Of a stretch of DNA of 64,000 bases, positions 20,579 to 45,083 are shown piece by piece (the stretch's first letter is position 1; each line of letters begins with the position of its first letter). A program made the translations under genes and the position numbers. The DNA is from Methanococcus vannielii SB (GTDB taxonomy: Archaea > AGJL01 > Methanococci > Methanococcales > Methanococcaceae), in NCBI RefSeq assembly GCF_000017165.1, contig NC_009634.1:1224552-1288551 (forward strand). The letters run 5' to 3'. The notes beneath the pieces are model-generated. The model saw only the letters and a list, made by a program, of their open reading frames with translations. It was not told where the DNA came from and made no database searches.

Positions 20579-20644
20579 GAAATCACCTCAATGTATATTA
20601 AGAATTGCTGTAAATATATATTATTGTTACATACCTAAAAACAA

Positions 20645-20678
20645 TACATATTACAACACGTTTTCATATTATGCAAAT
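20645..20678 (+). promoter_or_regulatory. rRNA operon promoter
   Basis: A TATA-like box TACATATTA (20645-20653) is followed after about 20 bases by TGCAAAT (20672-20678). Methanococcus stable-RNA promoters pair a TATA box with a TGCAA-type box at the transcription start, about 25 bases downstream, which is the spacing seen. Transcription would start near 20673, giving a leader of about 160 bases. Confidence 0.55.
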
Positions 20679-20717
20679 CAAAGTGATCGCCTGAACTAAA
20701 TCACTCAGGTGTGATGT

Positions 20718-20755
20718 AAGCCCACAATCTAGGTGAAACCTAGATAGCGACCAAA
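20718..20755 (+). other. 5' arm of pre-16S processing stem
   Basis: AAGCCCACAAT (20718-20728) and TAGCGACCAAA (20745-20755) pair with the sequences at 22337-22347 and 22312-22322 after 16S. Between them a perfect hairpin (ATCTAGGT-GAA-ACCTAGAT, 20727-20745) interrupts the arm. The interrupted long helix is the kind of bulge-containing stem cut by the archaeal splicing endonuclease to release pre-16S. Confidence 0.75.
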
Positions 20756-20761
20756 TAAAAT

Positions 20762-20825
20762 GTCATTTCCTTTAATGTAAAAATGACGTACTCCACGAGA
20801 GTGTGAGCGTAAAATTCTTTTACGC
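20762..20825 (+). other. Leader hairpins before 16S rRNA
   Basis: Two further hairpins lie between the processing stem and mature 16S: GTCATTT paired with AAATGAC (20762-20786), and a perfect 8-bp stem GCGTAAAA-TTC-TTTTACGC (20807-20825) that ends 6 bases before the mature 5' end. Confidence 0.6.
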
Positions 20826-20831
20826 CACAAA

Positions 20832-22302
<1,471 letters not shown>

Positions 22303-22311
22303 AAAGAACAT

Positions 22312-22347
22312 TTTGGTCGCTACTAGGCACTAAATGATTGTGGGCTT
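22312..22347 (+). other. 3' arm of pre-16S processing stem
   Basis: TTTGGTCGCTA (22312-22322) and ATTGTGGGCTT (22337-22347) pair perfectly, 11 bp each, with the two segments of the 5' arm at 20745-20755 and 20718-20728. Confidence 0.75.
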
Positions 22348-22417
22348 AATTTTTTTGCCCAGCTCGTAATTTTTAGATTACGATCTAGGGGCCGGATATT
22401 AATGATGGTCGTGCACA

Positions 22418-22445
22418 AGCTTTCATATCTGGTGTTATCCAGATG
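22418..22445 (+). other. 5' arm of pre-23S processing stem
   Basis: AGCTTTCATATCT (22418-22430) and the following GTGTTATCCAGATG pair with CATCTGGACAC (25419-25429) and AGATATGAAAGCT (25433-25445) after 23S. Short unpaired stretches between the two helices form the interrupted stem expected for endonuclease processing. Confidence 0.75.
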
Positions 22446-22448
22446 TCT

Positions 22449-25416
<2,968 letters not shown>

Positions 25417-25418
25417 GC

Positions 25419-25445
25419 ATCTGGACACTTAAAGATATGAAAGCT
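25419..25445 (+). other. 3' arm of pre-23S processing stem
   Basis: CATCTGGACAC and AGATATGAAAGCT close the long helix around 23S with the arm at 22418-22445; the second segment is a perfect 13-bp complement. Confidence 0.75.
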
Positions 25446-25470
25446 AAAATGCACTTTTAATTTAACATTT

Positions 25471-25590
25471 TGATATAACGGTCAAAGCGGAGGTGTAACA
25501 TCCGATCCCATCCCGATCTCGGAAATTAAGCCCTCCAGCGATTCTTTAAGTACTGCTATCTAGTGGGAACAAAGTGACGCCGTTAGTCAC
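25471..25590 (+). rRNA. 5S ribosomal RNA
   Basis: A 5S gene of about 120 bases with the conserved core CATCCCGATCTCGGAAATTAAG and a closing stem formed by TGATATAACGG and CCGTTAGTCAC. It follows 23S by about 55 bases. No tRNA gene follows. Ends are by secondary structure. Confidence 0.93.
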
Positions 25591-25596
25591 TTTTTA
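25571..25596 (+). terminator. Terminator hairpin overlapping 5S 3' end
   Basis: AAAGTGAC (25571-25578) and GTCACTTT (25586-25593) form a perfect 8-bp inverted repeat ending in a run of five T. The left half and loop lie inside mature 5S, so forming the hairpin competes with the 5S closing stem. Confidence 0.5.
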
Positions 25597-41392: not shown

Positions 41393-41512
41393 TAATTTTT
41401 TAATTTTTATAAAGTTTTAAATCATTGCAAAAACTTAATATCGTTAAAATACATAAAATTTGAAAATTGAATGTTCTTAAATCCGGTTTTCATAATATTT
41501 TCGAGGTTAAAC

Positions 41513-42985
41513 ATGTGGCACTATTTGTTTTTAGCAATATATGTAGCTTTAATTATTACAATTGCAACGGTAACTAAGAATAAGGTAAAAGGCGTTTCTG
41601 ACTTTTTACTTGGGGGTAGAAATGTAAATCCTTGAATGTCAGCATTTTCTTATGGGACTGCTTACTTTTCAGCAGTTATATTTATTGGATTTGCAGGTAA
41701 AATGGGATGGAATTTTGGACTTTCAACATTTTGGCTAATTCTTGGAAACACCATTATAGGAAGCTTTTTAGCATGGCAGGTTCTCGGTAAAAAAACAAGG
41801 GAAATAACACACCGGCTTTCTGTATCGACGATGCCGAGCTTTTTAGGTAAAAGGTATAAAAGTAAAAATCTTGAATCCTTAACAGCATTTATAATATTTT
41901 TCTTTTTAGTCCCGTATTCAGCATCAATATATAAGGGATTGAATTATCTTTTTGAAGGATTTGGAATACCTTCATTTTTCGCATACTTAATGATAGCTGC
42001 ATTAACTGCAATATACCTTTATTTTGGGGGATTCGTTGCAGCAACTCTTGCAGATTTTGTTCAAGGATGTATTATGCTTTTAGGGGTATTTTTAATGGTA
42101 TTTTTCTTAAGTAAAAATCCTGAAGTTGGAGGATTTTCAAATATACTTTCAAACCTTGGTACAATAGACCCGATGCTTGTTACCCCTATAAATGAAGTAA
42201 GCCTTATTCCTGTAATCGGGATAGTATTACTCACAAGTATCGGTAGCTGGGGACTTCCTCAAATGATACACAAGTTTTACACCATAAAAAGCGAAAAAGC
42301 AGCAGTTTCAGCGAAATGGGTTTCAACAGCATTTGCATTTGTAATAACGTCTGGGGCAGTATTTATTGGAATGGTAAGCAGAATATTTTTCCCAGACGAA
42401 GCTTCAAAACTTGCAAATGGAATTACTAATCCAGATATGATAATCCCAAAAATAATGAGCATCGCACTTCCAGAATGGGTTTCTGCACTGATACTTGTCC
42501 TTGTAATTTCTGCATCAATGTCAACGTTAGCATCATTAGTTCTTGCATCAAGTTCAGTAGTTACCTTAGATGTTTTAAAAGGGCGATTAAAACCGGAACT
42601 TTCTGGAAGGCATACAATGGCGACAATGAAAATACTTTGCGTTTTATTTGTAATACTTTCATTCATTCTTGCTGTAGTTCCAAATAATTACGTTCTTTCA
42701 TTAATGGCACTTTCATGGGGTCTTGTTTCAGGATGTCTTCTTGCTCCGTACTTACTTGGACTCTATTGGAGGAACACTACAAAATCAGGCGTATGGGCAG
42801 GCATTATTTCTGCACTTTCAATCATGCTTGGCGGGGCTTACTATTATGGAATAAATAGCGTTTATATGCCAGCAGTTGGTTCTTTAGCAATGATCGCACC
42901 GATATTTGTTATAATACTCGTAAGTTTAGTTACAAAGCCGTTTGACCAGGAGCATATTAATTACATATATAATGATAAAAAATAA
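41513..42985 (+). CDS. Sodium/solute symporter (SSS family) with internal UGA codon
   Basis: The gene starts at ATG 41513 (GAGGT 5 bases upstream) and encodes 490 codons of a sodium:solute symporter, but codon 41 (41633-41635) is TGA. The parts before (MWHYLFLAIYVALIITIAT, then SDFLLGGRNVNP) and after (MSAFSYGTAYFSAVIFIGFAG) join into one normal SSS N-terminus in the same frame. At this place the family commonly has an aromatic residue, and TGG (Trp) is one base away. The rest has about 12 further helices and looks intact. An ATG directly follows the TGA, so restart could give a protein lacking helix 1. Mutation, sequencing error or recoding are all possible. Substrate unclear; pantothenate/PanF-like is one option. 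Confidence 0.85.
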
Positions 42986-43160
42986 TTATTTACCCTTTTT
43001 ATTCGATTTTTTCAAAATTTGTATATATCATAATTTAGATAGTTTGGTAAGCCAATTTTTCAAAACAAATTGACTCTACAATGTCAAAATAATTACTAAT
43101 AAATATGATAATTACTAAATATACTTTAGAACTACTAAAAATTTTTATTTTCGGGGTATT

Positions 43161-43400
43161 ATGCACTATTCCTGTATTAATCCGGTTTTAACGGAAGAAA
43201 ATGCCATAATAGATAAAGGTTCTCTAAAAACTAAGAAAAAATTCGCTTTTTTACTTGAAATAAATGATAGGGTAACCGTTAACCGCAATTTTTATGTAAA
43301 TGATGAAGTAGATGTAATTTTGGACTATGAATATACTAATAGCAAGAGACCAAAAGAAAATATTAAAATATATACAATTCATGAATTAATACGAGAATAA
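43161..43400 (+). CDS. Small conserved hypothetical protein
   Basis: A 79-residue protein that I do not recognise. It looks like a single small beta barrel (KKKFAFLLEINDRVTVNRNF, then EVDVILDYEYTN and KIYTIHEL), soluble, without a signal peptide. GGGG lies just before the ATG. The next gene follows by 10 bases with AAGGTG before its ATG, so the two form an operon and the pairing of a beta protein with a three-helix membrane protein may be functional. Confidence 0.5.
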   Translation: MHYSCINPVLTEENAIIDKGSLKTKKKFAFLLEINDRVTVNRNFYVNDEVDVILDYEYTNSKRPKENIKIYTIHELIRE

Positions 43401-43410
43401 GGTGTAAAAA

Positions 43411-43686
43411 ATGGAATTAGATGCAAAAGTTACGATAATTCATGCAGTATTTGGTGCAGTATTTGGCTATCTTACAAACTACGTTTATACATATGGTTTA
43501 GGTATATTTAGCGGAATTTCTTCATTTGTGTTCATGTTTATAGCACTTTTGATTACTGGGCATATAACTGCTTTTATTTTTGGAAAGGAAAGTATGAATC
43601 AAAAGGACTGGCTTGGTAGTGGGTTAGTGCCTTTTTTCTTTATAGGAATGGTATTTTGGGTAATGTCTTATAATGGAGTTCTTTAA
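43411..43686 (+). CDS. Small three-helix membrane protein
   Basis: A 91-residue protein with three predicted membrane helices (about residues 8-27, 33-55 and 70-88). Its layout, with AVFGAVFGYLTNYVY, an interior FIFGKES motif followed by KDWLGSGLVPFFF and a final short hydrophobic tail, recalls small archaeal membrane proteins compared to EMC6 and the methanogen family DUF5379. That comparison is from memory and unsure. AAGGTG lies before the ATG, 10 bases after the preceding gene. Confidence 0.55.
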   Translation: MELDAKVTIIHAVFGAVFGYLTNYVYTYGLGIFSGISSFVFMFIALLITGHITAFIFGKESMNQKDWLGSGLVPFFFIGMVFWVMSYNGVL

Positions 43687-43799
43687 TAACATAGTTTAAC
43701 GGTTATTCAAAGTAACCTTTAAAAAGTAACCTTTAAACTTTTAATTTTAAAATCTCTAGACTTACGTTTTATTATTTTATAATTATATCAGGTGATTTA

Positions 43800-45083
43800 G
43801 TGGACTTAAATATAAAATTGGATAAATCTGGAGAATTATTTAATGAATCAAAAAAGTACCTTGTAGGTGGAGTAAATAGTCCTGTAAGATCCTTTAAACC
43901 GTTTCCATTTTTTGTAAAATCTGCTAAATCCTGCTTTTTATATGATGAAGATGGAAATGAATTTATTGATTACTGTTTAGCATACGGGCCAATGGTTTTG
44001 GGTCATGCAAATGAAAAGATACTAAATGCAGTAAAAGAACAAATGGATTTTGGAACGGCTTATGGAGTTCCAAGTGAAAAAGAAATCATTCTTGCAAAGG
44101 AAGTTATAAATAGAATTCCCTGTGCAGAAATGGTTAGATTTGTAAATTCTGGAACAGAAGCTACAATGGGCGCTATAAGGCTTGCAAGGGGAGTTACAAA
44201 AAGAAATAAAATCATTAAATTTGAAGGTGCATTCCATGGTGCACACGATTATGTGCTCGTAAAAAGCGGAAGTGGTGCTTTAACACACGGGGCTCCAAAT
44301 TCGCCAGGAATTCCGGAAGATACAACTAAAAATACACTTTTAATTCCATTTAATGACGAAGGTGCGGTTAGAAAAGTAATCTCTGAAAATAAAGGCGAAA
44401 TTGCATGTATTATTCTTGAACCTATGATGGGCAATGTGGGATGTATTTTACCAAAAGACGGATATTTAAAATTTTTAAGGGAAATTACGGAAGAAAACGG
44501 AATAATATTAATATTTGATGAAGTTATTACTGGATTTAGGCTTTCAAAAGGTGGTGCTCAAGAATATTATGGTGTAAAAGCAGATATTGCAACACTTGGA
44601 AAAATCCTTGGTGGTGGATTTCCTATCGGTGCAATTGCAGGTAAAAAAGAATTAATGGAACAATTTTCGCCAAAAGGGCAGGTTTATCAGGCAGGAACAT
44701 TTAATGGAAACCCTATTTCAGTTACTGCCGGAATTGAAACACTTAAAAATCTTAATAATGCATTTTATAAAGAAACTGCTAAAAAAGCGGAAATTTTATC
44801 TAATTATTTAATTGAAACGACTGAAAAATACAAAATTCCTGCAAGGGTTTATAGTGTTGCTTCAATATTTCAAGTCTACTTTAACGACAAAGATATACTA
44901 ACGTATGACGACGCAAAATCGAGCGATACTGAAAAGTTCATGAAGTACTTTTACAGTTTGTTAGAAAATGGCGTATTTATTCCCCCGTCCCAATTTGAAT
45001 GTTGTTTCACGTCAATAAAACACGACGATTTTGTTTTAGAAAAAACAATGAATGCAATAGATATTGCAATGAAAAAGCTTTAA
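43800..45083 (+). CDS. hemL: Glutamate-1-semialdehyde 2,1-aminomutase
   Basis: A 427-residue PLP enzyme that makes 5-aminolevulinate from glutamate 1-semialdehyde, feeding the tetrapyrroles needed for F430 and cobamides. The N-terminus ([16 protein letters not shown]), [27 protein letters not shown] and the PLP-lysine block [18 protein letters not shown] are diagnostic. The start is GTG at 43800, with GGTG 5 bases upstream and no ATG nearby in frame. Length is standard. The gene is single; other haem-pathway genes are elsewhere. Confidence 0.97.

Follow-up and report, generated by a model that had tools for sequence, protein, structure and literature searches.

Does the single in-frame TGA in a sodium:solute symporter gene of Methanococcus vannielii SB reflect a lost gene, a sequence error, a restart site, or a recoded codon? 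The gene lies in a window of 64,000 nucleotides, corresponding to positions 1224552-1288551 of the 1,720,048-base single-contig genome (estimated completeness, 99.96%). Feature positions below are those of the window. Our literature search found no report of an internal stop in Methanococcus vannielii.

Structure of the interrupted gene

The SSS/SSF symporter gene occupies 41513-42985 on the + strand. It has 490 codons including the internal TGA, ends with TAA, and is open throughout except for this TGA. A Shine-Dalgarno-like GAGGT (41503-41507) is located 5 nt ahead of the full-length ATG at 41513. Codons 1-40 (41513-41632) encode TM0, a hydrophobic stretch at residues 3-21 by hydropathy, and a conserved LGGR loop before TM1. 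Codon 41 is the TGA (41633-41635). It is followed by a 449-codon open frame (41636-42985), whose ATG abuts the TGA and which is a candidate reinitiation product without TM0. Downstream of the TGA, 201 of 4041 single-base substitutions would create a stop, yet no further stop is present. The frame described in the earlier note, from the ATG with GAGGT to the 449 open codons after the TGA, was recovered at exactly these positions.

Both versions of the protein belong to the SSS/SSF family (PF00474), with scores above the gathering score of 22.8 bits. The 449-aa frame scores 175.9 bits and matches the Pfam SSF profile from position 14. If the TGA is read through, the score rises to 189.1 bits and the match begins at position 1. 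This gain indicates that the N-terminal 40 codons and the downstream frame are one gene, and the proposal that both sides form one continuous family N-terminus holds. Thirty-four of the 40 residues before the stop are identical to those of an intact relative (G001). TM0 and the LeuT-type 5+5 core are not in one uninterrupted protein; TM0 and the LGGR loop lie 5' of the TGA, and the core helices lie 3' of it.

The gene resembles the PutP/PanF-like branch of SSS in its full-length profile match when read through, in the LGGR..PW motif, and in the onset of TM1 as in homologs. It differs in the interruption of its frame at codon 41. Its scores are far below the equivalog cut-offs of PutP (211.4 against 515.5) and PanF (155.7 against 328.05), and it is placed at the family level.

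Codon 41 in related genomes

A search of 61 genomes, that of the interrupted gene among them, found matches to the symporter in 12. Each of the six other genomes of the genus carries a stop-free ortholog, three at 80-81% identity over the gene and three at 59-60%. Codon 41 is TGG in all six, in agreement with the earlier remark that a tryptophan codon is one base away. In a wider scan, 80 of 592 confirmed homologs were used, with no record of the same species or genus among them. Trp, encoded by TGG in every case, occupies the codon-41 position in the first 52 homologs listed (38-50% identity). The remaining 28, at 31% identity or less, have G, S, A, or K. Neither Cys nor a stop is present at this position in the six orthologs or the 80 homologs inspected, and no relative examined has the same TGA.

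Selection on both sides of the stop

A codon branch model for seven species gave an omega of 0.053 on the own-species branch versus 0.039 elsewhere. The difference is not significant (log-likelihood gain 0.40; 2 delta lnL 0.79). The model used 485 of the 490 codons, as gapped codons and the stop were dropped. The likelihood profile disfavors a branch omega above ~0.12, an approximate upper bound obtained by interpolation; roughly 8% of the branch at most could thus have been neutral, again approximately. The reading of selection is based on this branch model and not on pairwise omegas, which are poor: synonymous sites are saturated against the nearest relatives (pairwise t of at least 4), and several pairwise fits are infinite.

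In comparison with G001, amino acids differ at 6 of 40 positions in codons 1-40 and at 86 of 445 in codons 42-490. The codons before the stop are as conserved as the rest, and neither side is decayed. Purifying selection on both sides of the TGA implies that any loss of function is young. A disabling lesion against intact orthologs is present, as expected of a pseudogene, and relaxed selection after the lesion is not observed. Judged from these substitution patterns, the stop would be young, false, or without effect on a gene that still functions.

A recent nonsense mutation as the probable explanation

The best reading is that the gene probably suffered a recent TGG-to-TGA nonsense mutation and became an incipient single-lesion pseudogene. 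A sequence error comes next in likelihood, then a functional restart, and recoding is the least likely.

In the nonsense reading, a G-to-A change in this strain would have turned the conserved Trp codon into a stop, in a gene on which selection apparently acted normally until very recently. The full-length product would be cut to 40 residues, which is why the gene would be an incipient pseudogene. A product ending at codon 40 is no transporter, and function would be null or strongly reduced. At most, background read-through or a restart at the AUG next to the stop might yield a little protein. We infer that the living strain carries the TGA and has lost the function. Supporting observations are the Trp in relatives, the conservation of both flanks, the lack of a detected SECIS in the regions scanned, and a tRNA-Trp with anticodon CCA.

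On the other side, UGA is a minority terminator. It ends none of the 24 genes in the 64-kb window. Of the 245 genes that match a G001 gene right up to the end, it terminates 23, of which two belong to the split formate-dehydrogenase-like gene described below. UGA is thus a true stop in this genome, although a little-used one. The symporter gene is like a young nonsense pseudogene in having one stop, no other lesion, and intact orthologs in all near relatives. It is unlike one in that relaxed selection is not seen and the TGA may be a false call. Should the TGA be genuine, the strain offers a natural mutant for the role of the transporter and for UGA-AUG reinitiation in methanogens.

Possible sequence error and the frequency of single lesions

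The main rival is an error in sequencing or consensus, in which case the strain has TGG and an intact gene. This explanation is rather unlikely. A base-calling error would look identical to a nonsense mutation, and only one base separates the TGA from the codon of all orthologs. On either side of the stop, selection has left the signature of a gene in full function, and undecayed sequence is equally expected if the gene is intact in the living strain. Against an error, the change is a substitution at a site outside any homopolymer, the genome is a single contig with the high estimated completeness given above, and there is no positive sign of an error.

The frequency of such lesions was surveyed with 254 relative-matched genes of G001 (373 ORFs in 400 kb) against 364 kb of the own genome. 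Thirteen genes were flagged, 11 with in-frame stops and two with matches in multiple frames. In nine of the 11, the stop falls in an N-terminal extension that is short or weakly conserved, and the case was read as a difference in start site. Another one is ambiguous, with TAA at codon 9 and all eight residues before it identical. The symporter gene is the only one among the 254 in which one in-frame stop interrupts a long stretch of conserved sequence (the 34 of 40 residues mentioned above). This uniqueness indicates that its TGA is not a chance ORF effect.

One of the two multi-frame cases looks like a nearby paralog. The other is a formate-dehydrogenase-like gene (PF00384; G000:C1:1154937-1156518; L081, L188) with a normal in-frame TGA plus a frameshift in an A-run. 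Its frames 2 and 3 match the 527-aa ORF of the relative in two pieces, and it is either a pseudogene or a sequencing error. Single-lesion genes are therefore rare but not unique in the sample, and a few of them could be base-call errors. As the formate-dehydrogenase-like gene is a second single-lesion gene in the same 364 kb, it could mean that a few assembly errors remain, which would favor an error at the symporter as well.

Possible restart at the adjacent AUG

Alternatively, translation could terminate at the UGA and restart at the abutting AUG, yielding a 449-residue symporter without TM0 and with the LeuT-type 5+5 core intact. That such a product is functional is improbable. More improbable still is the specific claim that the UGA-AUG junction is a built-in termination-reinitiation site and that an SSS symporter without TM0 still transports. 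If that were true, the gene would show by natural experiment whether an SSS symporter can do without TM0 and the LGGR inner-gate loop.

The ATG at 41636 with TM0 upstream of it does permit a restart without the first helix, as the earlier note suggested. The distance between UGA and AUG is 0 nt, and the downstream frame is conserved. According to a study on Haloferax volcanii and E. coli (PMC10666635), reinitiation is efficient where frames overlap or lie very close together and drops almost to nothing at ~20 nt. From the result for H. volcanii, some restart product is plausible here. As such a product is conceivable, the loss of function is what we infer rather than observe.

The structural evidence points both ways. 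In a study of SiaT (PMC5931594), the SSS fold is described as TM0 plus a 5+5 core, with TM0 outside the core and the N-terminus periplasmic. From this topology, a start after TM0 would let TM1 enter from the cytoplasm. The same study assigns a part in inner gating to an intracellular loop/helix that connects TM0 with TM1; the restart product would lack this element.

The sequence context is also unfavorable. The Met after codon 41 is kept in all seven same-genus copies including the interrupted gene (MSAF in each); it is ancestral and did not arise for restart. Within 15 nt upstream of the ATG at 41636 there is no SD-like sequence. Together, these two observations suggest that the UGA-AUG arrangement is accidental, and there is no sign of adaptation. 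In each of the 80 homologs, the frame is open for at least 43 codons ahead of the codon-41 point, and 69 of them have LGGR at exactly the same spacing. Codons 1-40 match the rest of the gene in conservation, contrary to what a long-standing restart form would show.

Is the UGA recoded?

Recoding of the UGA, as selenocysteine or by Trp read-through, to give the full-length protein is very improbable. The genome does use selenocysteine: it has a tRNA-Sec with anticodon TCA, selD with an in-frame TGA, and further genes with in-frame UGA. The names selD, vhuU-type, and fwdB come from family matches. In favor of recoding, the frame downstream of the UGA in the symporter gene is conserved. Like the archaeal selenoproteins with a 3'-UTR SECIS (selD, VhuU-type, FwdB), it is a conserved gene with an in-frame UGA in a selenocysteine-using organism. 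Unlike them, it has Trp and not Cys in relatives, it has no detected GAA/A kink-turn-like SECIS, and its product is not a redox enzyme. The UGA is also shared by no relative examined.

The methanogen SECIS is described in PMC11881835 as an internal loop with GAA opposite A that is enclosed by GC clamps and lies mostly in the 3' UTR. Both As of the loop are essential there, and AAA and CAA variants function less well. A SECIS was accordingly defined here as GAA, or its AAA and CAA variants, opposite A, with GC clamps, in the 3' or 5' UTR. A relaxed motif scan found no such KTL-type element in 41393-44286, a stretch that takes in the gene with its 5' region and the 1,300 nt after it. Neither the upstream intergenic region (41393-41512) nor the 3' intergenic region (42986-43160) contains one; the latter is AT-rich, with no GC-clamped kink-turn-like hairpin. 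An Rfam search returned nothing relevant. The earlier note had seen no SECIS-like element downstream, and the 3' search agrees.

The relaxed scan recovers SECIS elements in the 3' regions of selD, the vhuU-type gene, and fwdB of the same genome. It found none in two fdhA-like loci as fetched, giving a recall of three of the five loci tried; the elements of the fdhA-like loci may lie outside the fetched stretch or be of another form. Of two stricter scans, the first found only the selD element, missing those of the vhuU-type gene and fwdB, and the second found these two and missed selD. At the GC setting that recovers all three, the background in the 64-kb window is 2 and 1 matches per strand. 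With the looser setting applied to the symporter gene it is 11 and 3, and 41393-44286 contains none of these matches on the strand of the gene.

Genome-wide reading of UGA as Trp would call for a tRNA-Trp with UCA and no use of UGA as a stop, and is not supported, because the anticodon is CCA and UGA is used as a stop; the anticodon likewise speaks against a suppressor tRNA-Trp. The tRNA-Trp gene (L183; G000:C1 near 1004612, minus strand) contains a 90-base intron; the Rfam tRNA search did not detect it, and a pattern search did.

The earlier interpretation is thus supported in part. The intact-looking gene, the TGA, the missing SECIS, and the possible restart stand; selenocysteine at codon 41, which it had considered worth excluding, is ruled out as far as sequence can do so, by Trp instead of Cys in relatives, the lack of a KTL-type SECIS in the scanned region, the undecayed downstream frame, and the absence of the UGA from the relatives examined. 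Even where an archaeon uses selenocysteine, a UGA within the frame of a conserved gene need not mean recoding. Here the alignment with Trp and not Cys, together with the SECIS search that finds none, settles the matter at sequence level.

Neighborhood of the gene

In G001, G003, and G004, a tandem second SSS symporter gene adjoins the ortholog; in G001 it comes after it. It is absent from 42986-43410, where no relic was found. The absence of a paralogous symporter beside the gene would fit a relaxed need for such uptake, as circumstantial evidence for a recent nonsense mutation.

Two other repeats were observed in the genome. Two identical 354-aa genes lie ~5 kb apart on the same strand (G000:C1:1067156-1068217 and 1072561-1073622). 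Duplicated blocks are present in 20620-25595 (1,728 bp at 100% and 3,214 bp at 99.8%), with the partner stretch ~32 kb away. They are probably two rRNA operons.
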